Shown piece after piece: positions 181 through 34,629 of a DNA stretch of 34,629 bases. Position 1 is the stretch's first letter; each line of letters opens with the position of its first letter. The DNA is from Anaerolineae bacterium (GTDB lineage: Bacteria; Chloroflexota; Anaerolineae; Aggregatilineales; Phototrophicaceae), in contig JABWBO010000036.1 in the NCBI GenBank assembly GCA_013360465.1, positions 1 through 34,629 on the forward strand, given 5' to 3'. A program made the position numbers and the translations under genes. The notes below the pieces were generated by a model. It had not been told where the DNA came from. It did not search any database and saw only the letters and a program-made list of their open reading frames with translations.

Positions 181-272
181 CGTGTATCGGCGTGAACCAC
201 AGCAGCGACCTGTCCGTTTGCCCGCCGCGTCACATCCCCTTGCGAGTCCGTTGGGAGCTAACACGAAACACC

Positions 273-4369: not shown

Positions 4370-4450
4370 ATGCGCCGCTGAAGCCTTCACCGGAAGCGGC
4401 GGGCGACTGCCGTCCGCCGCCCCATGCCGCACTCCTGAAAAGGACCTGAG

Positions 4451-4873
4451 ATGCCTTACAAACAGGAACGTGTCTCTGGACGCATTCGCAAAATCCTCAG
4501 CACGTTGATCTTTCGTGAAGTCGCCGACCCTCGGCTGGCAGGGATCACCGTCACCGACGTTGAGATCGATGCTGAACTAATGTATGCCACCGTCTATGTC
4601 AACGCGATGGGCGAGGAAGAACGCGAGCCGGAGGTCATGATCGGGCTGGAACACGCCAAGGGCTTCCTGCGCCGTGAGGTTGCCCATCGTCTGCGCCTGC
4701 GCCGCGCGCCGGTACTCACCTTTAAGTGGGACGCCAGCCTGGAGCGCGGCGAGCGCATCAGCCACCTGCTCTCTGAGCTGGACATCCCTGCCGAAGAAAC
4801 ATCCGACGAAGATGCAGACACCTCGGTTGGCGCTGCCGATGACGAGGATGTGGGAGGAGAAGAACGTGACTGA
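4451..4873 (+). CDS. rbfA: 30S ribosome-binding factor RbfA
   Basis: RbfA assists late 16S rRNA and 30S maturation. The 140-aa product begins with the family pattern (QERVSGRIRKILSTLI), followed by VADPRLAGITVTDVEID and the KH-like core ending in the LRLRRAPVLTF and HLLSELD segments. The last 35 residues form an acidic tail rich in Asp and Glu, longer than the E. coli C-terminus. AGGA (4441-4444) stands 6 nt before the ATG. It overlaps the next gene by 8 nt. Confidence 0.94.
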   Translation: MPYKQERVSGRIRKILSTLIFREVADPRLAGITVTDVEIDAELMYATVYVNAMGEEEREPEVMIGLEHAKGFLRREVAHRLRLRRAPVLTFKWDASLERGERISHLLSELDIPAEETSDEDADTSVGAADDEDVGGEERD

Positions 4874-5873: not shown

Positions 5874-6817
5874 TCTTCGGCTTCCTCAACATCGACAAGC
5901 CGCGCGGTATGACCAGTCACGATGTGGTCAATCACATCCGACGGATCATACGCACGCGCCAGGTGGGTCACGCCGGCACGCTCGACCCGATGGCGACCGG
6001 CGTCCTGATCATCTGCGCCGGAGCAGCCACCCGGCTCAGCGACTACGTGATGAGCGATACCAAAGCCTACCGCGCCGTCGTGCGTTTGGGCGTCGAGACC
6101 GATACCTACGACGCCGACGGGAAAGTCCTCGCCGAAGCAGACGCGAGCGCGATCAGCCGCCAGCAGGTCGAGGATGCCCTCGCCGGGTTTCGCGGCGACA
6201 TCCTGCAAACGCCGCCAGCATTCAGCGCCATCAAGCGCGGCGGGAAAAAGCTCTATGAGCTGGCGCGGCAGGGAAAAGCCATCGAACTGCCGCCGCGCCC
6301 CATCTCGATCTTCAGCCTGGAGATCGTCGAATGGGGACCACCGCAGGTGACGCTGAACGTCGTCTGCTCCGCCGGGACCTACATCCGCAGCATCGCCCAC
6401 GATCTGGGCGCGGCGCTGGGGGTTGGCGCGCACCTGACCGGGCTGACGCGCACCGCCAGCGGCGGCTTCCAGCTTGCGCAGGCGACGCCGTTGGATACAC
6501 TCATCGCCAGTCAGGGTGCGTCTACCTATCTGATTCCTCCAGCGGTTGCTCTGCGTCGCTATCCGCGCATCACGCTGGAAGCCGCCGAGATCGACGATCT
6601 GCGTCATGGGCGTAAAATTCCGGCAGAGTCACTCCTAGCCGACGGCGCGGACGCTGTCGGCGGCAATGTCGTGATGGCGTTCGACCTTCTCGACAGGCTT
6701 GCCGCCGTCTGCGCGCTGCGCGACGGCTGGCTGCATCCGTCAAAAGTCTTCGCAGAAACGCCGGACGACTCGGCTGTCGAGGATGATCCGGCAGAGTACG
6801 AAACGGACTCGCGATGA
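5870..6817 (+). CDS. truB: tRNA pseudouridine(55) synthase TruB
   Basis: TruB converts U55 to pseudouridine in the T-loop of tRNAs. The protein (315 aa) opens with GFLNIDKPRGMTSHDVV and carries the catalytic motif HAGTLDPMATG with D39 as the nucleophilic aspartate. Conserved KAYRAVVRLG and the SAGTYIRSIAHDLG segment follow. The C-terminal RNA-binding part is less conserved and ends in an acidic stretch. The ATG overlaps the nrnA stop as ATGA, as does the next junction to ribF. Confidence 0.96.
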   Translation: MIFGFLNIDKPRGMTSHDVVNHIRRIIRTRQVGHAGTLDPMATGVLIICAGAATRLSDYVMSDTKAYRAVVRLGVETDTYDADGKVLAEADASAISRQQVEDALAGFRGDILQTPPAFSAIKRGGKKLYELARQGKAIELPPRPISIFSLEIVEWGPPQVTLNVVCSAGTYIRSIAHDLGAALGVGAHLTGLTRTASGGFQLAQATPLDTLIASQGASTYLIPPAVALRRYPRITLEAAEIDDLRHGRKIPAESLLADGADAVGGNVVMAFDLLDRLAAVCALRDGWLHPSKVFAETPDDSAVEDDPAEYETDSR

Positions 6818-7746
6818 TTCACATTTCCGACCTGGGCGCTATCGATCTGGTCAAGTCATCGGTGGTCACGATAGGCGTCTTCGACGGCGTCCATCGCGGA
6901 CATCGCTTCCTGCTGCGGCGAATCGCCGAAGAAGCACGCGCCAGCAGTCGGCTTGCCGTCGTCGTCACGTTCTACCCGCACCCCGACATCGTGGTGCGCG
7001 GCTTGACCGGGCGCTACTACCTCCTCCACCCCGATGAGCGCGCCCGCATGATGGGGGAACTGGGGGTCGATGTCGTCGTGACGCTGCATTTCGATGATGC
7101 TCTGCGCCAGGTGCGTGCCGCCGCCTTCACCGACCTGCTGGTGGAACACCTCAGGGTCGAAGCCCTGTGGGTGGGCGCAGACTTCGCGCTCGGCTACCAG
7201 CGTGAGGGAAACGTCGCCTTCTTGCAGCGCCAGGGCGAGGCGAAAGGTTTCGAGGTCAAAGTCCTCGATCTGCTGATGGCGGACGCCGGCGAAGAGGGCG
7301 CGATCAGCAGCACCGCCGTGCGCGAGGCGCTGGCGCAGGGCGAGGTCGCGCGGGCGGCAGACTGGCTGGGCTACGGTTATCGCGTGAGCGGTCCGGTGGT
7401 GCGCGGGGCGCAGCGGGGACGCACCATCGGCTTTCCAACCGCCAACATCCAGGCGTGGGAGTCGCAGGTCATCCCGGCGAACGGCGTCTATGCCGGCTGG
7501 GCATTCCTGGGCGACGAGCGCTTCATGGCGGTCACCAACGTGGGCAACCGTCCGACGTTCGACGGTCAGGGGGTAACCATCGAAGCGCACCTGCTCGATT
7601 TCGACCGGGACATCTACGATCAGACGCTCACCTTCACCTTTGAACACCGTCTGCGCGCGGAGATGAAGTTCAGCGGCATCGATGCGCTGATCGCGCAGAT
7701 CAAAGCCGACGCCGAGGCGGGTCGAGCGCTGCTCTCCGAACCATAG
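6814..7746 (+). CDS. ribF: Bifunctional riboflavin kinase/FAD synthetase RibF
   Basis: RibF makes FMN from riboflavin and FAD from FMN. The N-terminal nucleotidyltransferase half shows GVFDGVHRGHRFLL, TFYPHP and the ISSTAVREAL motif. The C-terminal riboflavin kinase half shows GRTIGFPTANI and ends in the EAHLLDFDRDIYD region. At 310 aa it has the usual full bifunctional length. It is joined to truB by an ATGA overlap, the common truB-ribF pairing. No terminator is visible in the 45 nt that follow. Confidence 0.95.
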   Translation: MIHISDLGAIDLVKSSVVTIGVFDGVHRGHRFLLRRIAEEARASSRLAVVVTFYPHPDIVVRGLTGRYYLLHPDERARMMGELGVDVVVTLHFDDALRQVRAAAFTDLLVEHLRVEALWVGADFALGYQREGNVAFLQRQGEAKGFEVKVLDLLMADAGEEGAISSTAVREALAQGEVARAADWLGYGYRVSGPVVRGAQRGRTIGFPTANIQAWESQVIPANGVYAGWAFLGDERFMAVTNVGNRPTFDGQGVTIEAHLLDFDRDIYDQTLTFTFEHRLRAEMKFSGIDALIAQIKADAEAGRALLSEP

Positions 7747-7791
7747 GGAATTCGGCTATACTGGATGGCAGATGAGCAAGGATGATGTGCG

Positions 7792-8064
7792 ATGGCGGTC
7801 TCAACTCACACGATGATGATCATGCTGTCCGACGACGAGCGCGATCTTCTGCAAGCTTTTGCCAGCGAACAGGGAATCGCCGATCCCGCCAATGCGGTCG
7901 GACAACTGCTGCGTGAATATGCCAGGGCAATCGACATGATCTGGGAGCTGAAACTCTCTCAGAACAACGGGGCGCTTGACGACCTGCTGAAGCAGGTGCG
8001 GGCAGACTCCGCCGCCGGTCTGACTGATACCCTCACGCCCGATTTGCTTGACGATGAATTCTAG
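7792..8064 (+). CDS. Putative antitoxin (RHH-like) of a small two-gene module
   Basis: This 90-aa protein has a short strand-like start (THTMMIMLSDDE) followed by two predicted helices (RDLLQAFASEQG and AVGQLLREYARA), resembling a ribbon-helix-helix DNA-binding fold. The C-terminal half is acidic, as in antitoxins that wrap their toxin. AAGGA (7778-7782) is 9 nt before the ATG, and a -10-like TATACT stands at 7757-7762 without a good -35. It overlaps the next gene by 11 nt. I do not recognise an exact family; the antitoxin role is inferred from size, order and partner. Confidence 0.5.
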   Translation: MAVSTHTMMIMLSDDERDLLQAFASEQGIADPANAVGQLLREYARAIDMIWELKLSQNNGALDDLLKQVRADSAAGLTDTLTPDLLDDEF

Positions 8065-8320
8065 AACGCATGCCGAATTCTGGTCTCGCTACAATGATCT
8101 GCCTCCTGAAGTCCGCAGACTTGCACAGAGCGCCTACCGGCTGTTCCGCCAGGACCCCTTCCATGCAAGTCTGCAATTCAAACCCGCCAAAGGACACCGG
8201 AATCTTTACTCCGTGCGCATCGGGCTGAAGTATCGTGCCCTCGGCACGATGACAGGGATCAACGAAATCACCTGGTTCTGGATAGGCACGCACGACGAGT
8301 ACGATACGCTGCTGCGGTGA
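8054..8320 (+). CDS. RelE/ParE-superfamily toxin-like protein
   Basis: The 88-aa basic product has the layout of RelE/ParE toxins: two N-terminal helices (AEFWSRYNDLPPEVRRLA, then AYRLFRQDP), a LQFKPAKGHRNLYSVRIG strand region, KYRALG, and a final strand with FWIGTHDEYDTLL. Family members are ribosome-dependent mRNA interferases or gyrase poisons, but some chromosomal copies are inert. The ATG at 8054 is preferred over a TTG at 8048. No Shine-Dalgarno is seen, so translation probably depends on coupling to the 11-nt overlapping upstream gene. Confidence 0.6.
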   Translation: MNSRTHAEFWSRYNDLPPEVRRLAQSAYRLFRQDPFHASLQFKPAKGHRNLYSVRIGLKYRALGTMTGINEITWFWIGTHDEYDTLLR

Positions 8321-8335
8321 CAGCAGGGTAACTTG

Positions 8336-9289
8336 TCAGTCTGCCGCCGCCGGCTGCACCGCCGCCGCTTCTGCCGCGAGAGTCGCCTCTTCCGCGATGA
8401 TCTGCTCGGACACCAGCACCCGCTTGAAAGCGGCAATCGCCACTTCGATCATCGTCAGGTCCGGCTGGCGCGTCGTCAGGTGTTGCAGCGCCAGGTTGGG
8501 GATGATGATCGCCCGGATGATCGGGCTGTCCATATGGCGCGCCGTGAAGCGGATGAACTCGTAGGCGATCCCGGCGATCACCGGCACGAGCAGGATGCGC
8601 GAGATCACCAGCCAGATGAATTCCGGGCGACCGAAGACCGAAAACACCAGCACGCTGACGAACACCACCGTCAGCAGAAACGCCGTGCCGCAGCGGGGGT
8701 GTTCAATCGGATAGCGCTGCACCACTTCCGGGGTCAGCTCGGCGCCTGCCTCGTAGGCGTTGATGGTCTTGTGTTCCGCGCCGTGATAGCCGAACAGCCG
8801 CTTAACGTCCTTCATCCGCCCGATCAGCCAGATATAGCCGACGACGATCAGCAGTCGGACCACGCCTTCCAGCAGGTTGACCAGAAACGACGTATGTTCC
8901 AGCCCGAAGAGCGATTCCAACCCCGAAGCGGCTGCCGTAGGGATGACGAAGAACAGCCCGACGCTCAGCAGCAGTGAGACAGCCAGCGTTCCGTAGCCCA
9001 GGGGCCCATTGAAGCTGACGTTCTCCTCTTCGCCCAGGGCGACATCCGCCGACCACATGAGCGCCCGCGTACCCAAGCCCAGCGCGTCCCACAAGCCTAC
9101 GATGCCGCGCACGAACGGCGTCCTGGCGATCCAGCCCCGATAAACCGTCGCGTTGATCGGCTGCTCATGGATGACGATCTCCCCTTTGGGGTTGCGCACC
9201 GCGACGGCGAACTTGTGCGCGCCGCGCATCATGACGCCTTCGATGACGGCTTGCCCGCCGTAGGAAAACTGCTTCGGTGTGCTGCTCAT
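8336..9289 (-). CDS. yqhQ: DUF1385 family membrane protein (YqhQ-like)
   Basis: The 317-aa product has the DUF1385 signature GGQAVIEGVMMRG (11-23), then an EQPI segment and several hydrophobic helices, and the conserved FGYHGAEHKTINAYEAG stretch with its two histidines. Another family block is EHPRCGTAFLLTV. B. subtilis YqhQ is of similar length; its biochemical role is not established, and the conserved His residues suggest a metal site. The start at 9289 is where homology begins; only a weak GAGAAG-type site precedes it. The C-terminus is an Ala-rich tail. It is divergent from the small gene at 9433. Confidence 0.88.
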   Translation of the reverse strand: MSSTPKQFSYGGQAVIEGVMMRGAHKFAVAVRNPKGEIVIHEQPINATVYRGWIARTPFVRGIVGLWDALGLGTRALMWSADVALGEEENVSFNGPLGYGTLAVSLLLSVGLFFVIPTAAASGLESLFGLEHTSFLVNLLEGVVRLLIVVGYIWLIGRMKDVKRLFGYHGAEHKTINAYEAGAELTPEVVQRYPIEHPRCGTAFLLTVVFVSVLVFSVFGRPEFIWLVISRILLVPVIAGIAYEFIRFTARHMDSPIIRAIIIPNLALQHLTTRQPDLTMIEVAIAAFKRVLVSEQIIAEEATLAAEAAAVQPAAAD

Positions 9290-9714: not shown

Positions 9715-11131
9715 GCGGCTCCAGGACGCCGCCGCGCGCTGCAAAGACTCCCTCTGCTGACTCGCCAAGGGTCAGAATCGCCGGCTGCCCGCCGACAGCG
9801 CACCCATCGACAGCATTACAGACCGCACCGCTCAGCGCCAGTGTATGCCTGCCGTTGAACGGACGCACGGGTACTGCCGCGCCGGCGGCGTCGATCAGGT
9901 CGCCGTTCGCCGCACTCTGAACCATCACCTCCGCCGGCTCAGCGGTGCGCGCCCACAGGACCAGCGATTCCCGACCATCGGCATGGCGCAGCCGCACGAC
10001 ATCGACCGCCGTTGTCTGCGCCAGCGCCGCGTCGGTCACGTCAGCGAACCCCCCGGCGACCATTCGCCAGGTCTCGTAGGCAGGACGGCGGCTCTCATCG
10101 GCGCGGATCAAGCCGAAGGACTCCGCCCCCGGCGGCAGAAAGGAGTCGAAGAGTTTGTAAGCGGCGATGCGCTCCGCCCCAGCAGCGAGACCCAGCGCCG
10201 CTGCCTGGACCAGAAACGCGCTCTGCTGTTCCAGCGTGATCTGCCAGGTAGGGCGCTCGACACGCCACGCCGGATCGAGGTTGGGCGAGGCGTTGGTCTC
10301 GACGATCCACAGCGCCTTGTCGCCGAAGCCGTAGCGTTCCAGCGCCTCCTGGTTGGCGCGGGTGATGTCGTAAACCGTGTCCGTTCGAAAATAGACATGG
10401 ACCGTCAGGGCGTCGAAGTAATCGCCGTGCGCGGCGGCTTCCGGGTCGGCGGCGATACGTTCGAGCAGGCGGTCCACGTAGAGCCGCCGGTCATGGTTGA
10501 CATCGTGCCAGTAGGTCGTGCCGGCGATGTGTATTTTCGCCTGTGGGTTGCCCTGACGCGCCGCGATGGAGGCGACTCTGAGCAGCTGAAAGTAATCGTC
10601 CAGACTCCCGGCGAAGATGAAGCCGTAAGTCCCGGCGGGAATATCCGGCTCGTTCCAGATGATGAACCGACTCACCCCGCGCTCGGCATAGTAGGCGGCA
10701 GCCCGGCGCATGAAATTCGCCCACAGGTTGCCCGGATCATCGACCGGCAGGTACAGCCCGCGAGGGACCCCGGCATTGGGCGGACCCTCCGTCGCCCAGG
10801 CAGGCGTGTGCTTGACGACGGCGACCACCTCTCGCCCGCAGTCGCGCGCCGCCGCCAGCCAGCGGTCATCGACGTTGAGTGTGTTCCAGTCGTCGGAAGA
10901 TGTGGGCTGATGCTGCGCCCAGTCGAAGATGATGCGTTCCCACCCCACGCCCAACGCGCAGGCGTCCTCTGGCAGCCAGAACGCCTCGACCACGCCGAAG
11001 CGGTTGAAGTCGGGTTCGGAGTCGTCCTGCGCCCCTGCGCCGAACGCCGCCAGCAGCGCCGCCAGCGCCGCTATGACGAAGCGCGCCGCACGTCCACGAG
11101 GTTGAGCTGCGGCGTCCGCTGACCGTTCCAC
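9701..11131 (-). CDS. Secreted glycoside-hydrolase-like protein (clan GH-A type barrel)
   Basis: This 476-aa protein has a signal peptide (basic start, hydrophobic core about 17-32, then GAGAQ) and a TIM-barrel body. WNEPD (159-163) gives a candidate acid/base E161, and IVETNA gives a candidate nucleophile E278, the pair expected of GH39- or GH5-like retaining enzymes. A beta-rich C-terminal domain follows. The substrate cannot be read from sequence. The start is a GTG at 11131 with GGAG (11140-11143) 8 nt upstream; no later in-frame start keeps the signal peptide. It therefore overlaps recJ by 61 nt, implying co-transcription with that unrelated gene. It ends by overlapping the convergent gene by 14 nt. 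Confidence 0.75.
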   Translation of the reverse strand: MERSADAAAQPRGRAARFVIAALAALLAAFGAGAQDDSEPDFNRFGVVEAFWLPEDACALGVGWERIIFDWAQHQPTSSDDWNTLNVDDRWLAAARDCGREVVAVVKHTPAWATEGPPNAGVPRGLYLPVDDPGNLWANFMRRAAAYYAERGVSRFIIWNEPDIPAGTYGFIFAGSLDDYFQLLRVASIAARQGNPQAKIHIAGTTYWHDVNHDRRLYVDRLLERIAADPEAAAHGDYFDALTVHVYFRTDTVYDITRANQEALERYGFGDKALWIVETNASPNLDPAWRVERPTWQITLEQQSAFLVQAAALGLAAGAERIAAYKLFDSFLPPGAESFGLIRADESRRPAYETWRMVAGGFADVTDAALAQTTAVDVVRLRHADGRESLVLWARTAEPAEVMVQSAANGDLIDAAGAAVPVRPFNGRHTLALSGAVCNAVDGCAVGGQPAILTLGESAEGVFAARGGVLEPLSFD

Positions 11132-12840
11132 TCGTTGATCTCCAGTTGATAGACGACATCGACCCGCGCCGCGTCGTTCGGGTAAGCCTCCGACAGATGA
11201 AAGCCGATGGCGTCGACCGGCGGCAAACCATTGCGCCCCAGCTTCAGACGGACGTGCCGCTCGTCCTTGCCGACCAACCGGTGTTCCAGCACGCGCAGCC
11301 CGCGCGTCACGAAGGTGGGCGGCGGATTGCTGTGCCCGGTCGGGTCGAGCCGCTGAAGCTCGACCGCCAGTTCCAGCGCGATGGCGCGGGCGTCCAGCTC
11401 CATGTCGATGTCAATGGTCGGCGCGAGTTCCTGCGCATCGAGTGCCTGTCGAGCGAGCGCCATCAGGCGTTCGCGCAGCGCCGGGATATTCTGGTTGACG
11501 ACGGTGAAACCCGCCGCCTGGGCGTGTCCGCCGTGCCGCACCAGCAGATCGGCGCACTGGTCGAGCGCACTGGTGATATCGAAGCCGGGGATGCTGCGGC
11601 AGGAGGCGCGGCTCTCGGTCTCCCCCTGCTCCAGGATGATCGCCGGGCGGTAGAACTCCTCGACCAGCCGCCCCGCCACCAGCCCGACGATGCCCGGCTT
11701 GAAGCTGGGATCGCCGGCAAAGATCAGCGGCTCGTCTTCGGCGTTGAGCAGCTGGCTGCGAATCATCTCCTGCGCCTGTCGGGTCAATTCCTGCCGCTGA
11801 AGGTTCAAGTTTTGCAGCTGAAGCGCCAGATCGGCGGCGCGGGTGTCATCGCGTGTGACCAGCAGCTCGTAAGCGATCATGGCGCTGTCCAGCCGGCCGG
11901 CGGCATTGATGCGCGGTCCGATGGCGAAGCCGATGCTGGAGGCGTTGATGCTGCCCGGCTTCAGCCCGGCGACTTCGGCGAGCGCTCGCAGCCCTGGGCG
12001 TTTGGTCTGGTTCAGCATCGCCAGCCCGCGTTTGACCAGCGCTCGATTCTCCAGGCGGTTGAGCGGAGCCAGGTCGGCGACCGTGCCTATCGCCACCAGA
12101 TCGAGCAGGTCCTCCGCTGTCAGCGGCGCCTGCGATTCCGATCCACCGCGCCCGGTCTGTATCCCGGCGATGGTCAGCAGCGCCTCCGCCAGACGAAACG
12201 CCACGCCGACGCCCGCCAGCATATCCTCGGTGTAAGCTACATCGCCCAGTTTTGGGTTGATCACGGCGTAAGCGTCGGGGATGTCCGGTCCGATGGTGTG
12301 ATGGTCGGTGACGATGATGTCTAAGCCGGCAGCCTTGCCATCCTCGACTTCGACCGAGGAGCGAATGCCGCAGTCCACCGTGATGACCAGCTTCACCCCC
12401 TGGCGCGCCAGCCGGATCAGGGCGTCGCTGTTCAGCCCATAGCCTTCATCAACGCGGTGCGGGATGTAGGCGACGGCATTCGCGCCCAGCGAGCGCAGCG
12501 TTTGCATCAGCAGCGCCGTCGAAGTCACGCCGTCGGCGTCGAAATCACCATAGACGGCGATCAGCTCGCGCGCCTTGATCGCCTGACGGATGCGCGACAG
12601 GGCGCGGTCGATGCTCAGCCGCTTGCCGCGAAAGCCGAGGACACCGCCTGCCGCCGGGTCATCCGCCTGCAAGAAACGCGCAGCGACCGCCTCGTCGGTC
12701 AGACCGCGATTGTAGAGGGTCTGCGCCAGCACAGCGCTCATCGCGCGGTAACGCGCCAGAAGATCAGGAGGGGCGGCAGGCGCTGTCTGCCAACGTTTCA
12801 GTCCGGGCATAGCAATGCGGTGTGCTAAAATCCTGCTCAT
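11071..12840 (-). CDS. recJ: Single-stranded-DNA-specific exonuclease RecJ (first copy)
   Basis: RecJ digests single-stranded DNA 5' to 3' in recombination, mismatch repair and base-excision repair. The 589-aa protein shows the DHH motif I YGDFDADGVTST (D99, D101, D103), VDCGIR, the TDHH motif (D179, H180, H181), APRINAAGRLD-like INAAGRLDSA, and the DHHA1 motif GGHAQAAG. It ends with an OB-type domain, giving the usual core length. No Shine-Dalgarno precedes the ATG at 12840 or the second ATG at 12810, so the start is uncertain. It is divergent from fmt and is followed by the glycoside-hydrolase-like gene. A second, longer RecJ lies at 32531. Confidence 0.92.
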   Translation of the reverse strand: MSRILAHRIAMPGLKRWQTAPAAPPDLLARYRAMSAVLAQTLYNRGLTDEAVAARFLQADDPAAGGVLGFRGKRLSIDRALSRIRQAIKARELIAVYGDFDADGVTSTALLMQTLRSLGANAVAYIPHRVDEGYGLNSDALIRLARQGVKLVITVDCGIRSSVEVEDGKAAGLDIIVTDHHTIGPDIPDAYAVINPKLGDVAYTEDMLAGVGVAFRLAEALLTIAGIQTGRGGSESQAPLTAEDLLDLVAIGTVADLAPLNRLENRALVKRGLAMLNQTKRPGLRALAEVAGLKPGSINASSIGFAIGPRINAAGRLDSAMIAYELLVTRDDTRAADLALQLQNLNLQRQELTRQAQEMIRSQLLNAEDEPLIFAGDPSFKPGIVGLVAGRLVEEFYRPAIILEQGETESRASCRSIPGFDITSALDQCADLLVRHGGHAQAAGFTVVNQNIPALRERLMALARQALDAQELAPTIDIDMELDARAIALELAVELQRLDPTGHSNPPPTFVTRGLRVLEHRLVGKDERHVRLKLGRNGLPPVDAIGFHLSEAYPNDAARVDVVYQLEINEWNGQRTPQLNLVDVRRASS

Positions 12841-14863: not shown

Positions 14864-14872
14864 TGCTACAAT
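14864..14872 (+). promoter_or_regulatory. Extended -10 promoter of the AlbA_2/kinase pair
   Basis: TGCTACAAT (14864-14872) combines an extended -10 TG with TACAAT (5 of 6). No -35 of quality lies 17 nt upstream. The predicted transcript begins near 14879 and contains the start at 14910; an ATG at 14871 overlaps the -10 itself and so is unlikely to be used. Confidence 0.5.
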
Positions 14873-14909
14873 GGGGTCACTTTTGCCGGCGCACCCACGT
14901 TGTAGGCAC

Positions 14910-16283
14910 ATGCTCAATCCGGATTTCTTGAAGAATGGACAGGGTCCTCGGCTGGCATTTCTCGCCAAACCGGAATCGCCGGCGCTCGCCGAGTTTCTGG
15001 TGGCGTTCGCCAATACCGACGGCGGTACTCTGGTCATGGGGCTGGACCCGGACGGCAAACCGGGCGTCAAGCTCGACCCGGAGGCGCTGACCAAGACCCT
15101 GCGCGAAGCCGATGCGCTGTGCAGCCCTTCTGTGGTCACCGGCAACTGGGAGCCCGTCGAGATGGACGATGGGCACATCGTCTACGCGGTGCGCGTCCCG
15201 CGCAGCATCGAGCTGCACGCGCTCACCGACGGGCGTGTGCTGATCCGCGACGGCACGTCCGGGCGTCCGCTGGGCGGGCAGGAGATCCTCAAGCTCGCCA
15301 GCGCCAAAAGCACCGGCGACTATGAGTCCGAGTTCGTCCCCGGCGCGACCAAGGACGATCTCAGCCGCAAGATGATCGACGAGTATCTGGCGAAGCGCGC
15401 CGAGCGCACCAAGCGCCCCTACAACGGCAAGATCGACGATCTGCTGCGCGAGATCGGCGCTATCGACAATGCCGACCGCCCCACCGTCAGCGGAATCCTG
15501 CTGTTCAGCGAATATCCGCAGCACTGGCTGCCGCAGTCGGGCATCGTCTTCGCCAAGTTCGTGGGCAAAACCCCTCGCGGCGAGAACGGACTCGCCGGCT
15601 ATTCCCGGCGGGAAGAGCTGACCGGTCCCCTCCCCCGCCTGATCGAAGCCTGCTGGAACTTGATCTGGAGCGAGATGGCGGTCAGCGCCGTCGTCAAAGG
15701 TCTGGAACGGGAAGAGACCTACGAATATCCTCAGTTCGCCGTCCGCGAAGGCATCGTCAACGCCATCTGCCATCGCGACTACCGCTTGAAGGGACGCCGC
15801 ATCGAGATTCGCATGTACTCCGACCGGCTGGAAGTGATCTCCCCCGGCGGGCTGCCTGGTTTCATCACGGTGGACAACATCGTCGATGAGCATTTCAGCC
15901 GCAACCCGCGCATCGTCAACGGGCTTTTCCAGTGGGGCTATATCGAAGAACTCGGTCTGGGCATCGACCGCATGATGGAAGAGATGGAACAAGCAGGGCA
16001 TCGACCGCCGGCGTTTGACGCCCGCCCCTACAGCTTTTCGGTGACGTTGTACAACAGCCGCGAGAAGCTGGCGACGCCCGACTGGGTGCGCAACACCAAC
16101 CACCGTCAGGCGCGGGCATTACAGTACATCCGCGATCACGGCTCGATTACCAACCGCGAATACCGCACGCTCTGCCAGGGCGTCTCTGCCGAGACGCTGC
16201 GGCTCGATCTGGCGGATATGGTCGAACGCGGCATCCTCCTTAAAGTGGGTTCCAAGAAGGGGACCTACTACATCCTCAAGTGA
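14910..16283 (+). CDS. AlbA_2 (Schlafen-like) DNA-binding/GHKL ATPase regulator
   Basis: The 457-aa protein has an N-terminal AlbA_2 domain with LVAFANTDGGTLVMGLD (30-46), then a GHKL ATPase-like region with the N-box VREGIVNAICHRDY (278-291) and the ISPGGLPG loop (310-317), and a GYIEELGLGIDRM segment. The last 50 residues look like a winged helix (ITNREYRTLCQGVSAETLRL). This domain order is typical of putative transcriptional regulators once annotated as RecG-like; their ligands and targets are mostly unknown. The ATG at 14910 is used because the earlier ATG at 14871 lies in the promoter. It overlaps the next gene, a histidine kinase, by 1 nt. Confidence 0.8.
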   Translation: MLNPDFLKNGQGPRLAFLAKPESPALAEFLVAFANTDGGTLVMGLDPDGKPGVKLDPEALTKTLREADALCSPSVVTGNWEPVEMDDGHIVYAVRVPRSIELHALTDGRVLIRDGTSGRPLGGQEILKLASAKSTGDYESEFVPGATKDDLSRKMIDEYLAKRAERTKRPYNGKIDDLLREIGAIDNADRPTVSGILLFSEYPQHWLPQSGIVFAKFVGKTPRGENGLAGYSRREELTGPLPRLIEACWNLIWSEMAVSAVVKGLEREETYEYPQFAVREGIVNAICHRDYRLKGRRIEIRMYSDRLEVISPGGLPGFITVDNIVDEHFSRNPRIVNGLFQWGYIEELGLGIDRMMEEMEQAGHRPPAFDARPYSFSVTLYNSREKLATPDWVRNTNHRQARALQYIRDHGSITNREYRTLCQGVSAETLRLDLADMVERGILLKVGSKKGTYYILK

Positions 16284-27169: not shown

Positions 27170-29422
27170 ATGATCAAACCGGAACAGCTTACACCCCTTC
27201 AGAGTCAGGCGGCGTCACTGCCGGCGACCGGGCGATTCTTCCTGGAAGGTCCCGCCGGCACGGGCAAGACGACCGCTGCCGTCGCGCGTCTGCTGCGCCT
27301 GCTGAACGAAGGCGCGCCTGCCGACTCGATCCTGATCGTCGCGCCGCAGCCGACGCTGGCGCTGCCCTACATCGAGGCGCTGCGCCGCGCCGATCTGCCG
27401 CCGGGCGGTCAGGCGCGCATCACCACCCTCAGCGGCATCGCCCGCGAAATGATCGCCCTCTTCTGGGGACAGGTCGCCCCGTCCGCCGGGTTTGCCTCGG
27501 CAGCCGCGCCGCCGACCTTCCTCAGCCTGGAGACGGCGCAGTACGTCATGGCGCAGATCGTCGATCCGCTCGTCGAAGATCAGGGCTACTTCGAGACGGT
27601 GACGCTGCCGCGCGGCAGGCTGTACAGCCAGCTCATCGACAACCTCAACAAGGCGGCGGTCGTCGGCTTTCCGCATACCGAGGTGGCGGAGCGCCTGAAA
27701 CCCGCCTGGGCGGGCGACCCGGCGTCGCTGCGCATGTACGACGAAGTGCAGGACGCGATCAACCGCTTCCGGGCGTACTGCCTGAACCACAACCTGCTCG
27801 ACTTCTCGCTGCTCATCGAGACCTTCATGCGTCATGGGCTGCCGGTCTGCTCCGAAATGCTGTTCCGCCGCGCGTCGCATCTCATCCTGGAAAACGTCGA
27901 GGAGGACACCCCTGCCGCGCACCAGGTCTTCCGCTCCTGGCTGGCGCGCTGCGAGTCCGCCCTGGTCCTGTTCGACTCCGATGCCGGCTATCGGCGCTTC
28001 CTGGGCGCGGACGAGGATTCGGCTTCGGGTCTGCGCGCCTTCTGCGACCAAACGCTCGACTTCAGCGACTCGCTGGTCGCTTCGCCGAGCGTGCAGGCGC
28101 TCACCTCTGAACTGGCGCGCATCATGGGGCAGTACGCCGAACACGTCCAGGGCGACCCGGCAGCCGCTTTCGATTATGACCTCGCCCGTTTCGCCCCGGA
28201 AAGCCTGGACTGGGCTGCCAAGGGCGCTGCCGAACTGATCCGTCAGGGCGCGCCGCCCGGCGAGATCGTCATCGTCGCCCCGTTCATGAGCGATGCGCTG
28301 CGCTTCTCGCTGATCGAGCGCCTGCGCGAGCGCGGGGTCACGGCGCGGTCGCACCGTCCCTCCAGGGCGCTGCGCGACGAGCCGGTCGTCCGGGCGATGC
28401 TGGCGCTGGCGCGGCTGGCGAACCCCGCCTGGGGCTTGCCTCCCGACGCCCGCGACCTCGCCTATGCCCTGATGGCGTCGCTGAGCGCCGGCGAAACCGG
28501 GGCGCTCGATCTGGCGCGAGCGCATCTGCTGGCGTTCTCGGCATATCCGAAGAGCGATCATCCCGCGCGGCTCGCCCCATTTGAGTCGCTGCCGCCGGAA
28601 ATCCAGGAGCGCATCACCTACACCATCGGCGAGAAGTACGACCGGCTGCGCGAATGGCTGGAAGCGCACATCCGCGCCACCGCCGCCCCGCCCACCGAAG
28701 ACAAGCCCAAACGCGGGCGGCGTAAGACCGTCGAAACTACGGCGCGCCTTGACCCGGCGCTGGATCACTTCTTCAGCCGCTTGTTCGGCGAGGTCCTCTC
28801 GGCGCGCGGCTTCGGGCTGCACAAAGACCTGATCGCCGCCGATGCCGTCGCTGCCCTGGTCGAATCGGCGCGCGGCTTCCGGGCGGCGATGGAACGAATC
28901 GCCGCCTTCGATAGTCCAGCGGCGATGGACGACTCGGTCATCGCGCGCGAGTACGTGCGCATGGTCGAAGCGGGGGTGATCGCCAATCAGTACATCGGCG
29001 CGTGGCAGCGCCCGGACGCCGACGCCGTGCTGGTCGCGCCCGCCTACACCTTCTTGATGAACAACCGCCCGGCGGCGCATCAGTTCTGGCTCGATGCCGG
29101 CGGACGCGGCTGGTCGGAGCGCATCTACCAGCCGCTCACCCACCCGGTGGTCCTCAGCCGCACCTGGGCTGCCGGGGATGTCTGGGACGGTGACAGCGAA
29201 GACGCCTACCGCCGCGAGACGCTCTTCCGGTTGGTCGTCGGGCTGCTGCGCCGCTGTCGCACGGCAGTCCACCTGGGGATCGCCGAGCTGAGCGAGACCG
29301 GCGGCATGGATCAAGGACTGCTGATCGAGGTCTTCAACCGCCTGCTGCGCCGCCTGAACGTGCCAGGTGACGGGACGGCGGGGAGCAGCAATCAACATGA
29401 AGGGCGAGCCGATGGCATTTGA
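27170..29422 (+). CDS. AddB-like P-loop helicase-related protein, motif II degenerate
   Basis: The 750-aa protein has Walker A GPAGTGKTT (27-35) and an IVAPQPTLALPYIEALR segment typical of the UvrD/AddB class. Where motif II should read DExQDT it reads LENVEEDTP (240-248), so the catalytic Asp-Glu pair is altered. Later FDSDAGYRRFLGAD and IVIVAPFMSDALRFSL resemble motifs III and IV, and no PD-(D/E)XK nuclease or Fe-S cysteines follow. It may therefore act as a structural or DNA-recognition partner, as AddB or RecC do, for the helicase encoded next. No ribosome site precedes the ATG; a GTG at 27152 is the alternative. It overlaps the next gene by 11 nt. Confidence 0.75.
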   Translation: MIKPEQLTPLQSQAASLPATGRFFLEGPAGTGKTTAAVARLLRLLNEGAPADSILIVAPQPTLALPYIEALRRADLPPGGQARITTLSGIAREMIALFWGQVAPSAGFASAAAPPTFLSLETAQYVMAQIVDPLVEDQGYFETVTLPRGRLYSQLIDNLNKAAVVGFPHTEVAERLKPAWAGDPASLRMYDEVQDAINRFRAYCLNHNLLDFSLLIETFMRHGLPVCSEMLFRRASHLILENVEEDTPAAHQVFRSWLARCESALVLFDSDAGYRRFLGADEDSASGLRAFCDQTLDFSDSLVASPSVQALTSELARIMGQYAEHVQGDPAAAFDYDLARFAPESLDWAAKGAAELIRQGAPPGEIVIVAPFMSDALRFSLIERLRERGVTARSHRPSRALRDEPVVRAMLALARLANPAWGLPPDARDLAYALMASLSAGETGALDLARAHLLAFSAYPKSDHPARLAPFESLPPEIQERITYTIGEKYDRLREWLEAHIRATAAPPTEDKPKRGRRKTVETTARLDPALDHFFSRLFGEVLSARGFGLHKDLIAADAVAALVESARGFRAAMERIAAFDSPAAMDDSVIAREYVRMVEAGVIANQYIGAWQRPDADAVLVAPAYTFLMNNRPAAHQFWLDAGGRGWSERIYQPLTHPVVLSRTWAAGDVWDGDSEDAYRRETLFRLVVGLLRRCRTAVHLGIAELSETGGMDQGLLIEVFNRLLRRLNVPGDGTAGSSNQHEGRADGI

Positions 29423-31685
29423 ACCACGCGCCGCACAGCGGGAGATTCTGAGCTACACCGGCGGCAAACTGGGAGTCGCCGCCGTGCCGGGCAGCGGCAA
29501 GACGCGCACCCTTTCCGCACTCGCCGCCCAACTGGTCGCCGAACGCCTTCACGACGGCGAGGAGGTGCTGATCGTCACGCTAGTCAACGCCGCCGTCGAG
29601 AACTTCACGACGCAGATTCGGGGCTTCCTCAAGGACCGGGGACTGCTGATGAACGTCGGCTATCGCGTGCGCACCCTGCACAGCATGTGCGCCGACATCG
29701 TGCGCGACAATCCGGGTCTGGTGGCGCTGAGCGACGGCTTCGCCATCCTCGACGAACGCGAAGCCGCCGACATCCTGAGCGACGCCGTGACCGCCTACCT
29801 GCGAGCAGAGCCGAACGCCGCCGATCACCTGCTCGCCGCCGATCTCGACGACGGACGGCGCGCGGCGCTGGTCCGCGACGACCTGCCCGGCTTGCTCACC
29901 GACATCGCCAGCGCTTTCATCCAGCGCGCCAAGGACCTCGCCCTGCTGCCGGAACAGGTCCTGGAGAATCTGCAACGTTTCGACCAGCCGCTCCCTCTGG
30001 CGGCGATGTGCGCCGCCATCTACGCCAGCTACCAGCGCGGTCTGAACTATCGCGGGGCGGTCGATTTTCAAGATTTGATCCGGCTGGCGCTGCAAGCGCT
30101 GGAACGGGACGAGGCGCTGCTGCGCCGCCTGCGCGCCCGCTGGCGCTTCATCCTGGAGGACGAGGCGCAGGACAGCAGTCGATTGCAGGAGCGCATCCTG
30201 CGGCTGCTGTGCGGCGAAGACGGCAGCTGGGTGCGCGTCGGCGACCCGAATCAGGCGATTTACGAGACCTTCACGACGGCAGACCCCGAGCTGCTGTGGC
30301 GCTTCCTCGACGAGGTGGGCGTCCGCGCCGTCGATCTGCCGGACAGCGGGCGATCCGCCGAGCCGATCATCGCCCTCGCCAACCACCTGATCGACTGGAC
30401 GGCGTCGGGACATCCCAACGCCGCCATCCGCCAGCGCCGGCCGCTGCGCCCACCGCACATCCAGCCAACCCCGCCCGGCGATCCTCAGCCTAACCCGCCC
30501 GCCGATGAGGCGCGCATTGTCTTCGTCGGCACGACCTTCACCCCCGCTCAGGAGGTCGAGTACGTCGCCGAGTCGTTGGCGCGCTGGCTGCCCGATCACG
30601 AGGATGAGACCTGCGCGGTGCTGGTTCCCCGCAATCAGCGGGGCTACCAGCTCATTGACTTCATCAACAAGAACCACCTGAACATACCGACCGTCGAGGT
30701 GCTGCAAAGCTCGACCAGCACCCGTCAGGCGGCGGGGGTGCTGGGCAATGTCCTCAACTATCTGGCGAAGCCGGATACCGCCGGCTGGCTGTCGATGGTC
30801 TACCGCGTCTGGCAGCGCGACACCCGTGACGACCCGGATCGCAACGCGCGCACGCTGGAGATCGCGCGCATCCTGAGCCAGATCGCCCACGTCGAAGACT
30901 TCCTCGCGCCGGCTCCGGGCGGTCGGGACTGGCTGCGCGAAGATTCCGACGCCGCCGCGCTGTTCGAGACCGATCCGCCCGCCGCCGATGAACTGCGCGC
31001 CTTTCGCGATCTGGTGCGGCGCTGGCAGAACGCCGCCGTCCTGCCCATCGATCAGCTCCTGCTGGTGCTGGCGGGCGATCTGTTCCGCGCCCAAGCCGAT
31101 CTGGCGCTGGCGCACAGCCTTGCCGTCGTGCTGCGGGGCTATGCCAGCCGTCAGGCGGACTGGCGTCTGCCGCAGTTCACCGAGGAACTGGCGTCCATCG
31201 CCCGCAACCAGCGGCGATTCCTGGGCATGGACGACGCCGCCCGCGCCTTCAACCCCGACGAGCATCGCGGCAGGGTCGCCGTCACCACCATGCACAGCGC
31301 CAAGGGTCTGGAATGGGACCGCGTCTATCTGCTGTCGGTCAACAGCTACGACTTTCCATCGGGGATGCCGGGCGAGAACTATTACGACGAGAAATACTTC
31401 GCCCGCGACGGGCTGAATCTGCGCGCCGAGGCGCTGGCGCAGCTTCAGGCGAGCGCCGACCCTTTCACCTTCGATTACGTCGAAGGCGCGGCGACCGGAC
31501 GCGCCCGCCAGGAATTGATCGGCGAGCGTCTGCGCCTGCTCTATGTCTCGGTCACGCGCGCCCGCCGCGAGCTGATCGTCACCTTCAACAGCGGGCGCGG
31601 GCGCTCCTCGCAGGCGGCGGAAGGTTTCATCGAACTGCGCCGCTATGCCCAGGCGGAGCTTGACGTGACCATGGAGGATGTCTGA
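29412..31685 (+). CDS. UvrD/Rep-family SF1A DNA helicase (AddA-like)
   Basis: The 757-aa protein has a full set of UvrD motifs: Walker A VPGSGKT (25-31), motif Ia in VTLVNAAVENF, LHSMCADI, motif II ILEDEAQDSS, motif III VGDPNQAIYETF, motif V TTMHSAKGLEWDRVY and motif VI RLRLLYVSVTRAR. It should translocate 3' to 5' and unwind DNA. Unlike AddA or RecB it lacks a fused nuclease domain; the nuclease is the next gene. The ATG at 29412 is chosen for its AAGG-type site 7 nt upstream; an ATG at 29397 is also possible. It overlaps the preceding gene by 11 nt and the next by 1 nt. Confidence 0.9.
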   Translation: MAFEPRAAQREILSYTGGKLGVAAVPGSGKTRTLSALAAQLVAERLHDGEEVLIVTLVNAAVENFTTQIRGFLKDRGLLMNVGYRVRTLHSMCADIVRDNPGLVALSDGFAILDEREAADILSDAVTAYLRAEPNAADHLLAADLDDGRRAALVRDDLPGLLTDIASAFIQRAKDLALLPEQVLENLQRFDQPLPLAAMCAAIYASYQRGLNYRGAVDFQDLIRLALQALERDEALLRRLRARWRFILEDEAQDSSRLQERILRLLCGEDGSWVRVGDPNQAIYETFTTADPELLWRFLDEVGVRAVDLPDSGRSAEPIIALANHLIDWTASGHPNAAIRQRRPLRPPHIQPTPPGDPQPNPPADEARIVFVGTTFTPAQEVEYVAESLARWLPDHEDETCAVLVPRNQRGYQLIDFINKNHLNIPTVEVLQSSTSTRQAAGVLGNVLNYLAKPDTAGWLSMVYRVWQRDTRDDPDRNARTLEIARILSQIAHVEDFLAPAPGGRDWLREDSDAAALFETDPPAADELRAFRDLVRRWQNAAVLPIDQLLLVLAGDLFRAQADLALAHSLAVVLRGYASRQADWRLPQFTEELASIARNQRRFLGMDDAARAFNPDEHRGRVAVTTMHSAKGLEWDRVYLLSVNSYDFPSGMPGENYYDEKYFARDGLNLRAEALAQLQASADPFTFDYVEGAATGRARQELIGERLRLLYVSVTRARRELIVTFNSGRGRSSQAAEGFIELRRYAQAELDVTMEDV

Positions 31686-32527
31686 TGCCCCTCATCCTGC
31701 CCGACGACTTCCAGTTCAGCCAGTCCGCGCTGCAGGATTATGCCGACTGTCACCGCCGCTTTTTTCTGCGCTGGGTGACGCGCCGCCGCTACCCCGCCCC
31801 GGAATCCGAGCCGATGCGCGCCTTCGAAGCCCGGATGGAACTGGGCGAGCGCTTTCACCAGATCATCGAGGCGCATCTGGCGGGCGTGCCGGCGGAGGCG
31901 CTGCGCGCGGCGCTCGACGGCGACGAGACGCTGGCGGGCTGGTTCGAGCGCTGCCTGAAGACGGCGCTGACCGACCTGCCGCAGCAGCAGCGCGCCGAGA
32001 TCACCCTGTCGATGCCGCTGGCGGACCGGCGTCTGGTCGCCAAGTTCGACCTGCTGGCGATTCAGCCCGGCGCGCGGGCGATGATCCTGGACTGGAAGAC
32101 CGCGCCGCGCATCTCCAACCGCAATGAACTCGCCGGACGCTGGCAAACCCTCCTCTATCCCTACGTGCTGGCGAAAGCGGGTGACTACCTCAACGGCGGA
32201 CAGCCCTTCGCGCCCGAACAGATCAACCTGGTCTACTGGTTCGCCGAAGCGCCGGATCAGCCGGTGATCTTCGCCTACGATGCCGCCGCCCATGCCCGCG
32301 CCGAGTCGCGCCTGAACGATCTGGTGACGGAGCTGCTCGCCCGCCCGAACGAGGAAGCGGCATTCTCGCTGACCTCTGATTTGACGCGCTGCCGCTTCTG
32401 CGCCTACCGCTCCTACTGCGAGCGCGGGACGCAGGCGGGGGATGTGCTGGGCACTGAGGTCGAAGGCGTGAAGGAACCGCCGGCGCTCGCGCTCGACCTG
32501 GAACAGGTCGCGGAGATCGCCTTCTAG
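31685..32527 (+). CDS. Stand-alone Fe-S PD-(D/E)XK nuclease (RecB/Cas4-like)
   Basis: The 280-aa protein carries a RecB-type nuclease core: ELGERFHQIIE (H58), KFDLLAIQPG (D122), ILDWKTA (D136, K138) and the RWQTLLYPYVL helix (Q154). C22 in DYADCHRRFFLRW near the N-terminus and C236, C239 and C245 in RCRFCAYRSYC form the split four-cysteine pattern that holds a 4Fe-4S cluster in AddB and Cas4. No cas gene or CRISPR array is present, so a role with the adjacent helicases is more likely. The start shares one base with the helicase stop (TGATG). Confidence 0.88.
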   Translation: MPLILPDDFQFSQSALQDYADCHRRFFLRWVTRRRYPAPESEPMRAFEARMELGERFHQIIEAHLAGVPAEALRAALDGDETLAGWFERCLKTALTDLPQQQRAEITLSMPLADRRLVAKFDLLAIQPGARAMILDWKTAPRISNRNELAGRWQTLLYPYVLAKAGDYLNGGQPFAPEQINLVYWFAEAPDQPVIFAYDAAAHARAESRLNDLVTELLARPNEEAAFSLTSDLTRCRFCAYRSYCERGTQAGDVLGTEVEGVKEPPALALDLEQVAEIAF

Positions 32528-32530
32528 ATC

Positions 32531-34629
32531 ATGTCCCTGCACTGGCTTGAACCCACTTCCGCCGCGCCGCCCGCCGATCTGGCTGCCGCCGTCGGCGATC
32601 CGCTGGTCGCCGCCGCCCTGGTCCGGCGCGGCATCGCCGACCCCGACGCCGCCCGCGCCTTCCTCGACCCCAATCTCTATCGCCTGTCCGATCCGTTCGA
32701 CCTGCCAGACATGGGCCGCGCGGTCGCCCGCCTGCGCCGCGCCATCGAACGCCAGGAGCGGATCGCCATCTGGGGTGATTTCGACGTGGATGGGCAGACC
32801 GCCACCGCCCTGCTGGTCGAGGGGTTGCGCGCCCTGGGAGCCGATCCCCTGTGGTATATCCCCGATCGGCTGAGCGAAGGGCATGGCATCCACATCCCGG
32901 CGCTCGGTCGGTTGATCGACGCCGGCGCGCGGCTGCTGGTCACCTGCGATACCGGCGTCGCTGCCCATGAGGCGATTGACTACGCGAAGCGCCGGGGCGT
33001 GGACGCCATCGTCACCGATCACCACCAGCTCACCGACCTTCTGCCGGCGGCGGAGGCGGTCGTCCACCCGCTGCGCCTGCCGGAAGACCACCCCATGCGC
33101 ACCCTGCCGGGGGTCGGCGCGGCGCTTCAACTTATACGCGCGCTGGCGGAATCGTCGAACGCCGACCCGGCGCTGATTGATCAACTGGTCGATCTGGCAG
33201 CGCTCGGCATCGTCGCCGATGTCGCCGTTCAGACCGGCGACGCCCGCTGCTGGCTCCAGCTTGGGCTGCGGTTGATGCGCCGGTCGCTGCGTCCGGGGCT
33301 TGCCGCCCTGGCGGAAGCCGCCGCCCTCGAACCTTCGCAGATCAACGAAGGGCACATCGCCTTCATCCTCGCGCCGCGTCTGAACGCCGCCGGGCGGCTG
33401 GACAGCGCGGCGCTGGGCGTCGAACTGCTGATGGCGCGCGATCTGGACTCGGCGCGCACCATCGCTCTCAAGCTGGAAGGGCTGAATGCGCAGCGCAAAC
33501 TGCTCTGCGACCAGATCGAAAGCGCCGCCGAAGCGCAGATCGCCCGCGACCCGGCGCTGCGCAGCGCCGACGTGCTGGTCCTCAGCGCCGACTCCTGGCA
33601 TACCGGCGTGGTCGGCATCGTCGCCAGCCGCCTGAGCGAGCGCTACAACGTGCCGGTCGTCCTGCTCGCCGCGCCGCCGGGGGAAGAAGCGCGCGGCTCC
33701 GCCCGGTCGGTGACGGGCGTGGACATCACGGCGGCGCTGGCGGCGAACGCCCATCTGCTCAACGGCTACGGCGGGCACGTCATGGCGGCGGGTCTTCGGC
33801 TGGCTCCGGAAAATATCGCCGCACTCCGCCGCGCGCTGGGCAGGACGGTTCGAGCGATGCGCGGCGAAGTGCCGCCCGGCACGCTGAGCATCGACGCCGA
33901 AACTACGCTGCCGGCGCTCACCCTCGATCTGGTCGCCTCGCTGGAACGACTCGCGCCGTTCGGCGCAGGCAACCCGGCGGTCGTGCTGGCGCTGCGCGAC
34001 CTGCGCCTACGCGATTCCCGACTGATCGGGCGGGACAAGGCGCACCGGACGTTGAACGTCGAGGACCCGTCCGGCGCGTCGGCGCGGGTGGTGTGGTGGG
34101 ACAGCGCCACCCTGCCCCTGCCCGAAGGGCGCTTCGATATCGCCTGCACGGTGCGCGCCAGCGATTTTCGCGGCGAACGGCGCGTCGAGATCGCGCTGCT
34201 CGACTGGCAGCCCGCGCGCCCCAGCGCCAAGGCGGGTGCGGCGCTGACGATCATCGACCACCGCAGCGACCCCGACCCGCAGGCGTTGCTGGCGCTGCTG
34301 AGCGGCGCGCTGGTCTACCGGGAAGGCGGCGACTCCGTCGCCGGAAGCACCCGCCTGGAACTGCGCCCGGCGGAGACACTGGCGATCTGGACCGCACCTC
34401 CCAACCGCGCCAGCCTGCGCGCCCTGCTGGATCAGGTCCAGCCGCGCATCGTCCACATCTTCGCCGTCGATCCTCCTTATGCCGACGGCGACTCCTTCCT
34501 GATGCGCCTGCTCGGTCTGGCGAAATTCGCGCTCCAGCATCGCGGCGGAGCCGCCGACCGTCAGGCGGTGGCGGCGGCGCTGGCGGCGACCGGGCGCGCC
34601 GTCGATCTGGGCTTGGCGGCGCTGGAGGC
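32531..34629 (+). CDS. RecJ-like DHH exonuclease, second copy, cut by window end
   Basis: The reading frame is open from the ATG at 32531 to the window end (699 codons, no stop). It has DHH motif I WGDFDVDGQTATALL (D83, D85, D87), TCDTGV (D140), TDHH (163-165), APRLNAAGRLD and the DHHA1 motif GYGGHVMAAG, so all catalytic residues seen are kept. An OB-type part is followed by a further C-terminal region that the copy at 11071 lacks, starting about residue 570 (LTIIDHRSDPDP). Its distinct N-terminus and position 3 nt after the nuclease stop suggest a role in the cassette. No good ribosome site precedes it. Confidence 0.85.
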   Translation, partial: MSLHWLEPTSAAPPADLAAAVGDPLVAAALVRRGIADPDAARAFLDPNLYRLSDPFDLPDMGRAVARLRRAIERQERIAIWGDFDVDGQTATALLVEGLRALGADPLWYIPDRLSEGHGIHIPALGRLIDAGARLLVTCDTGVAAHEAIDYAKRRGVDAIVTDHHQLTDLLPAAEAVVHPLRLPEDHPMRTLPGVGAALQLIRALAESSNADPALIDQLVDLAALGIVADVAVQTGDARCWLQLGLRLMRRSLRPGLAALAEAAALEPSQINEGHIAFILAPRLNAAGRLDSAALGVELLMARDLDSARTIALKLEGLNAQRKLLCDQIESAAEAQIARDPALRSADVLVLSADSWHTGVVGIVASRLSERYNVPVVLLAAPPGEEARGSARSVTGVDITAALAANAHLLNGYGGHVMAAGLRLAPENIAALRRALGRTVRAMRGEVPPGTLSIDAETTLPALTLDLVASLERLAPFGAGNPAVVLALRDLRLRDSRLIGRDKAHRTLNVEDPSGASARVVWWDSATLPLPEGRFDIACTVRASDFRGERRVEIALLDWQPARPSAKAGAALTIIDHRSDPDPQALLALLSGALVYREGGDSVAGSTRLELRPAETLAIWTAPPNRASLRALLDQVQPRIVHIFAVDPPYADGDSFLMRLLGLAKFALQHRGGAADRQAVAAALAATGRAVDLGLAALE

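Follow-up and report, generated by a model that had tools for sequence, protein, structure and literature searches.

Can a DNA-end-processing machine related to AddAB and AdnAB be encoded in separate pieces? The question is raised by contig JABWBO010000036.1 of an Anaerolineae bacterium (Chloroflexota; assembly GCA_013360465.1), which was analysed over its whole length of 34,629 bases and is called the window below. It is one of the 256 contigs (our C9) of a 5.93 Mb genome (G000) that is 97% complete and 4.3% contaminated. At the right end of the window, from 27170 to 34629, lie four plus-strand genes that we call the cassette. P1 and P2 overlap by 11 nt and P2 and P3 by 1 nt, and a gap of 3 nt separates P3 from the last gene, RecJ2, all counted from ATG starts. 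In this cassette the helicase, a helicase-like protein and the nuclease are separate genes, and a dedicated RecJ paralogue stands alongside. We read it, with a probability of roughly 0.58, as a split, single-nuclease relative of AddAB and AdnAB that processes DNA ends for recombinational repair, a reading in which we infer the complex, its polarity and its role. The genes concerned are as follows.

27170..29422, plus strand: P1, a superfamily 1A (SF1A) helicase-like pseudo-helicase with no nuclease domain (translation, alignment, motif table, AlphaFold model, fold matches, hhalign)
29412..31685, plus strand: P2, a complete UvrD-type SF1A helicase with no nuclease domain (Pfam, motif residues, profile search)
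31685..32527, plus strand: P3, a stand-alone Fe-S (iron-sulphur) PD-(D/E)XK nuclease of the RecB type (Pfam, invariant residues, model, hhalign)
32531..34629, plus strand: P4 or RecJ2, the cassette RecJ, its 3′ end cut by the contig end (TIGR00644, RecJ tree, motif stretches)
11071..12840, minus strand: RecJ1, the class-wide RecJ, outside the cassette (TIGR00644, tree)

Judged by its motifs, P1 is not an active SF1A helicase, motifs II to V being degenerate. In all 30 aligned homologues Asn replaces the catalytic Glu of motif II and Gly the Gln of motif III, and P1 has neither the Arg of motif IV nor the HxxKG of motif V. Retained in 30/30 are the P-loop Lys39 and the Arg of motif VI, the latter motif having been positioned by eye; motifs II–V were matched to those of P2 through an hhalign alignment of the two profiles (97.4% probability). 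The P1 sequence alone gives a weak P-loop match in Pfam (3.7e-5), and its AlphaFold model, with a pLDDT (predicted local distance difference test) of 88.1, displays a whole SF1A fold. Among the best 50 matches, to which the comparisons of the P1 and P3 models extended, Foldseek TM (template modelling) scores normalised by query length were highest for AdnB (0.62), followed by AddB (0.58) and UvrD (about 0.55). Realignment of the P1 model gave Z scores of 31.9 for UvrD, at a root-mean-square deviation (rmsd) of 9.5, 26.9 for AddA, 25.8 for AdnB and 22.6 for AddB. In profile comparison P1 aligned with the N-terminal region of the class's own AddB at 97.1% over 383 columns, the AddB alignment holding three sequences only.

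P2 has the residues expected of a working motor. Its key residues in motifs I, II (DExx), III (Q), IV (R), V (HxxKG) and VI (TR) are invariant in the 20 aligned homologues, and the protein stops soon after motif VI, with no PF12705 nuclease domain in Pfam. That domain is found instead in P3 (PF12705, 6e-27), in which the seven nuclease positions H-E-D-DxK-QxxxY and the four Fe-S cysteines (one Cys, then a C-terminal CxxCx5C) are invariant in 11/11 sequences. The best match to the P3 model (pLDDT 81), among those listed, was the nuclease domain of AdnA (Z 17.1, rmsd 3.2, 216 residues); the Cas4-like ACE1 (Z 13.9) and the AddB nuclease (Z 13.4) came next. P3 also aligned by hhalign with the C-terminal nuclease of the class's own AddB (97.3%). 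In its predicted fold and its four cysteines P3 agrees with an AdnA-type Fe-S nuclease, and binding of a cluster is predicted.

RecJ is a 5′-3′ exonuclease, and the cassette member contains the DFDVDG, DHH and GGHVMAAG stretches. Its TIGR00644 score is 466 bits, above the cut-off of 397, although the protein is incomplete, as its open reading frame (ORF) runs off the contig end; RecJ1 scores 515 bits. In a tree of 71 RecJ proteins a single branch with 100% SH-aLRT (Shimodaira-Hasegawa-like approximate likelihood ratio test) support separates 53 of the cassette type from 18 of the class type, the latter including three proteins from cassette-free genomes. This tree excludes proteins shorter than 500 aa and matches whose locus had not been retrieved, and the labels of the two types had been assigned by the better BLAST score before it was built. 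Complete cassette RecJ proteins are mostly 750–870 aa long, compared with 565–620 aa for most class RecJ proteins. P4 is a RecJ by domain content that differs from the general TIGR00644 type in its greater length and its own clade; on the sequence evidence, RecJ2 is a dedicated paralogue. The window thus holds, about 20 kb apart on one contig, two RecJ genes from two well-separated clades.

The preliminary description of this DNA had placed four ORFs with just these overlaps and this gap, and its coordinates and strand are correct. Its names for the proteins also stand up: the complete UvrD-type helicase has every SF1A motif, the lone Fe-S PD-(D/E)XK nuclease has its PF12705 domain with invariant cysteines and nuclease residues, the second RecJ has its counterpart on the opposite strand of the same contig, and the AddB-like P-loop protein, weak in Pfam alone, is backed by the predicted fold and the profile comparison.

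Is the cassette kept together in other genomes? A P1 profile found relatives in 253 of 396 Anaerolineae genomes and in 139 of 222 genera. At a threshold of 1e-12 it matched 45 of 400 genomes of the phylum, all of them among the 55 belonging to the class, and none of the 345 outside. A draw of 301 phylum genomes gave 53 matches to P1 at E 1e-3, of which 31 were strong and all came from the 38 class genomes; the other 22 covered mostly the P-loop end only. Within those 38 genomes P2 was found in exactly the 31 that have P1, and P3 in 29 of the 31 and in none of the seven without P1. Two full RecJ genes were present in 25 of the 31 (five had one, and one had fragments), and all seven genomes lacking P1 have one. 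Fisher tests of co-occurrence with P1, uncorrected for kinship, gave 8e-8 for P2, 3e-6 for P3 and 1.4e-4 for two RecJ genes. In one family (f2), whose genes often lie apart, P1, P2 and P3 are all present in 17/17 genomes and two RecJ genes in 16/17, and one RecJ falls in the cassette clade in 13 of them.

The conserved order that was to be checked in relatives was indeed found there. Eighty named loci, the best 80 of 503 relatives in the genome scan and hence biased to near relatives of the query, were scored for adjacency (gap below 200 nt), loci without downstream room being dropped. P1 was followed directly by P2 in 45 of 75 loci with room, and in a further 17 P2 lay no more than 6 kb away on the same strand. 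P2 was followed by P3 in 33 of 36, and P3 by RecJ2 in 22 of 33, with seven more within 5 kb. The corresponding figures for 30 further class loci were 12/29 (nine more within 6 kb), 8/11 and 3/8. Of all 111 loci with P1, 88 also have P2, 56 have P3 and 41 have RecJ2, and no further constant partner was found, the next shared neighbour occurring in at most 16. The other neighbour clusters (79, 67, 31 and 14 loci) consist of antisense ORFs inside P1, P2, P3/RecJ2 and P2, respectively, all but 11 of their 319 ORFs being of this sort. The nearest P1 relative among the best 80 of 503 is 94% identical and comes from a metagenome-assembled genome (MAG) labelled Anaerolineae.

The same four genes in the same order are carried by plasmid pSR56 of Salinibacter ruber M8, with 41, 42, 45 and 42% identity for P1, P2, P3 and RecJ2; there they are annotated as a hypothetical protein, an ATP-dependent helicase, a PD-(D/E)XK nuclease family protein and RecJ. 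The plasmid RecJ is 42% identical to the cassette type and 33% to the class RecJ, and its nearest neighbours in the tree are cassette RecJ proteins. Since the order recurs both in related genomes and on this plasmid, whose host belongs to another phylum, it is not due to chance. A search of other plasmids found neither P1 nor P3, and only a weak UvrD match, in Ilyobacter. A full four-gene cassette also lies on a contig labelled Candidatus Fraserbacteria (L217, JAJCYT010000023.1), through either transfer or mis-binning. At L276 (7682-11143, minus strand) a P1 homologue stands in frame behind a complete dnaN (beta clamp) gene, with an apparent dnaA start divergently nearby; the fusion is probably an artefact, since undetermined bases occur in the assembly and the only apparent defect of dnaN is a missing stop codon. 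The N-terminal extensions of P1 at L275 and L277 look like read-through and have no Pfam match.

How, then, does the cassette relate to the known machines? We class it as a variant of the AddAB/AdnAB kind and a member of neither, because the defining fusions are absent. With the Bacillus-type AddAB it shares one SF1A motor, one inactivated SF1A partner and an Fe-S RecB-type nuclease; it differs in that the nuclease is unfused from the partner, the motor carries no nuclease and a RecJ stands in the operon. P2 has the SF1A helicase of AddA and lacks the RecB-type nuclease fused to its C terminus, and the inactivated helicase and Fe-S nuclease that are joined in AddB are here separate halves with the motor gene between them. 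On the strength of the predicted folds and the profile comparison, P1 and P3 would together be the two pieces of an AddB/AdnA subunit divided around the motor gene. Neither P1 nor P2 rises above the cut-off of a curated AddA or AddB model (P2 scores 87.5 bits against addA_Gpos, cut-off 707.7), which is a weak test because the class's own full-length AddA and AddB fall below the cut-offs too. P1 gives 11.8 bits against addA_alphas and no AddB model at E 0.1, and the 12.9 bits of the curated RecD model to its P-loop are the sole signal of a RecBCD subunit among the four proteins.

In the mycobacterial AdnAB, AdnA and AdnB each fuse a helicase with a nuclease. The cassette resembles it in that the P3 model is nearest to the AdnA nuclease domain and the P1 model has its highest query-length TM score with AdnB; it differs in comprising three genes and one nuclease, no nuclease domain being found by Pfam in P1 or P2. 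The closest published counterpart found is an unfused operon of UvrD and a Cas4-like pfam12705 nuclease, mostly from Clostridiales and suggested to act in repair (PMC5704561). Compared by that description only, it shares with the cassette a UvrD-type helicase adjoining a lone pfam12705 nuclease, and the part of the paper that describes it names no P1-like partner or RecJ. One class genome without P1 (G232, locus L259) encodes an 888-aa UvrD-like protein (5419-8085) beside a lone PF12705 nuclease (about 8103-8777), possibly a different two-gene helicase-nuclease pair. No description of the four-gene cassette was found in open-licence PubMed Central papers, which is weak evidence of novelty.

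Does the cassette take the place of AddAB? According to a 2019 survey, RecBCD, AddAB or AdnAB occurs in 88% of the genomes covered there (PMC6452273). A search for PF12705 ORFs of at least 700 aa, with positive controls from E. coli, B. subtilis and Corynebacterium (protein unspecified) and with gaps possible in MAGs, found none in 23 of the 31 cassette genomes. The other eight are G000, G240, G005, G018, G028, G080, G136 and G290, and those examined were of the AddA and/or AddB type: G005 has AddA and AddB side by side, G240 has AddB beside a 415-aa piece of AddA, and G028 has AddA with no AddB match to the fragment query. In the window's own genome an AddA-like fragment of 880 aa (C176) and an AddB-like C-terminal fragment of 364 aa (C103), both at contig ends, are probably parts of AddAB. 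An AddA/UvrD-like N-terminal start on a further contig of that genome (C216, L017, 232-1068) is perhaps the start of the C176 fragment; its ORF runs into unrelated Cys-rich sequence read antisense, and the contig looks chimeric. Among the seven class genomes without P1, a PF12705 ORF of at least 700 aa is present in three (G088, G184 and G128, the last weak) and absent in four, so that the presence of the cassette and that of the long ORF are not simply complementary. We thus part from the preliminary description in its expectation of a genome free of AddAB; its split AddAB-like machine with a RecJ holds in the separate genes, the kept order and the RecJ paralogue.

What might such a cassette do? 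In AddAB a single motor is described as feeding each strand to its own nuclease; the AddA nuclease cuts the 3′ strand until Chi, which the helicase-like part of AddB binds and thereby shields that strand, and degradation of the 5′ strand then continues (PMC4027173, PMC4824097, as far as these accounts go). In one report (PMC3466216) both the AddB nuclease and Sso0001, a Cas4 protein, are described as 5′-3′ exonucleases. In the cassette P2 would be the 3′-5′ SF1A motor, and P1 an inactivated partner helicase in series with it that holds the complex together and either scans the 3′ strand or a sequence or merely braces the complex. P3 would be the Fe-S nuclease that is fused behind the partner in AdnA/AddB, here supplied in trans, and RecJ2 could degrade the displaced 5′-ended strand. 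With no AddA-type nuclease present, and with P3 and RecJ2 both belonging to 5′-to-3′ types, we infer resection of the 5′-ended strand only, so that RecA would have a 3′ tail available at the outset.

Several observations weigh against the cassette being a split relative of AddAB and AdnAB. Realignment of the model shows P1 to be no closer to AddB/AdnB than to plain UvrD, with a large rmsd, and "AddB-like" is therefore a functional reading; by hhalign it resembles P2 as strongly as AddB (97.4 versus 97.1%). P3 was not found in 2/31 cassette genomes and a second full RecJ not in 6/31, and P1, P2, P3 and RecJ2 are dispersed in several genomes. The eight of 31 that keep a PF12705 ORF of at least 700 aa rule out a simple replacement of AddAB, and carriage on a plasmid fits defence as well.

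Would the cassette instead be a defence module that destroys incoming linear DNA of phages or plasmids? We consider this unlikely. On pSR56 (L273) the whole cassette lies two genes downstream of, and codirectional with, a gene (8059-9237) for an XRE helix-turn-helix and IrrE-like Peptidase_M78 protein that matches the PADLOC models RmrA, CapP and CapH; restriction-modification genes are present on the same plasmid. Helicase-nuclease modules of this superfamily do occur in defence loci, as stated in the part of PMC5704561 concerned with them. Given its position near an IrrE-type regulator, the plasmid copy may serve defence or the upkeep of the plasmid after damage. The presence in 253/396 class genomes, in contrast, is more like that of a core function, and no further neighbour is constant, although the neighbours were not typed for defence. 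In PADLOC-DB 2.0 (2023 library) P1 has matches of P-loop length only and RecJ2 none, and P2 gives generic UvrD-type matches, mostly to GajB (best 25 of 51 families). The latter is a likeness to Gabija, from which the cassette differs in that no GajA model appears for any of its four proteins among the matches listed (for P2, those same 25). No P1 relative was found in viral contigs searched with two patterns, nor any P1 or P3 match in phage records, and on these grounds an origin in a phage or virus was rejected. Nucleases directed at 5′ ends only would, moreover, presumably not degrade both strands. Wide presence in one class, the lack of fixed further neighbours and the proposed one-strand polarity speak for repair.

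Rather improbable, and slightly less favoured than defence, is an operon of separately acting repair enzymes, a helicase, a nuclease, RecJ and a regulator-like P1, with no single machine. The genes are dispersed in many class genomes, and RecJ is known to work with a UvrD/RecQ-type helicase as a free pair, which we count for this explanation. However, P1 and P2 co-occur in 31/31 genomes, neither being found alone among the 38, and the four genes stand together on pSR56, from another phylum; a degenerate helicase, furthermore, is a structural partner in RecBCD/AddAB, by the account in PMC4824097.

That an ordinary AddAB or AdnAB was wrongly split by sequencing errors or annotation, as the MAG assembly and the AddAB-type gene fragments of the same genome might suggest, is refuted by comparison across genomes and deserves practically no credence, since the same split recurs in dozens of genomes, in the cultured Anaerolinea thermolimosa IMO-1 (L183) and on the complete plasmid, AddB and AddA stand side by side in relatives, and the order P1-P2-P3, which puts the motor between two AddB-like halves, excludes a frameshift origin.

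Is the cassette under the control of DNA damage? One near-palindrome overlaps the P1 start in the window. In 103 loci the region upstream of P1 was scanned, against shuffled sequence, for five LexA-like or dyad forms that we presumed to be suitable and that may not be the LexA site of this class. Three of the five were near the shuffled level, and GAACN4GTTC gave three exact sites versus 0.4. TAGAACN4GTTCTA, with at most two mismatches, occurred in 6/103 loci, compared with 0.9 in shuffled sequence; a background of 4,597 windows taken elsewhere in these loci predicts 0.3 (binomial 9e-7, a value for one form out of the five). Five of the sites lie upstream of P1, in L178, L179, L187, L192 and L199, and the sixth, in L078, lies within the start of the gene; three of the six are near copies of one another. 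The palindrome is thus a weak hint, to be taken as a lead only, that the cassette may be under damage (SOS) control in a few genomes.

Elsewhere in the window, a gene at 14871-16283 (plus strand), adjoining a histidine kinase gene, encodes both a Schlafen AlbA_2 domain and a RecG-C-terminal-like ATPase domain (HATPase_c_4), and a housekeeping run of nusA, infB, a DHH phosphoesterase, truB and a riboflavin kinase/FAD synthetase extends over 192-7746 (plus strand).

Taken together, the cassette could conceivably represent a further class of end-processing machine beside RecBCD, AddAB and AdnAB, a doubtful idea: a modular four-protein engine acting on the 5′-ended strand only, needing no Chi switch to protect the 3′ tail, the sole such machine in most cassette-bearing Anaerolineae and also plasmid-borne. 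In RecBCD-type machines a nuclease fused to a helicase subunit is commonly regarded as a defining trait, and the cassette would be a widespread natural version without that fusion, in which each function could be added or omitted in vitro and the pseudo-helicase alone tested as a scanner. The RecJ clade and the plasmid copy provide ready handles for such work. A fundamental repair machine may thus exist in a layout that has so far escaped notice, and the cassette may explain how breaks are repaired in the many members of the class in which no long fused AddAB-, AdnAB- or RecB-like nuclease was found.

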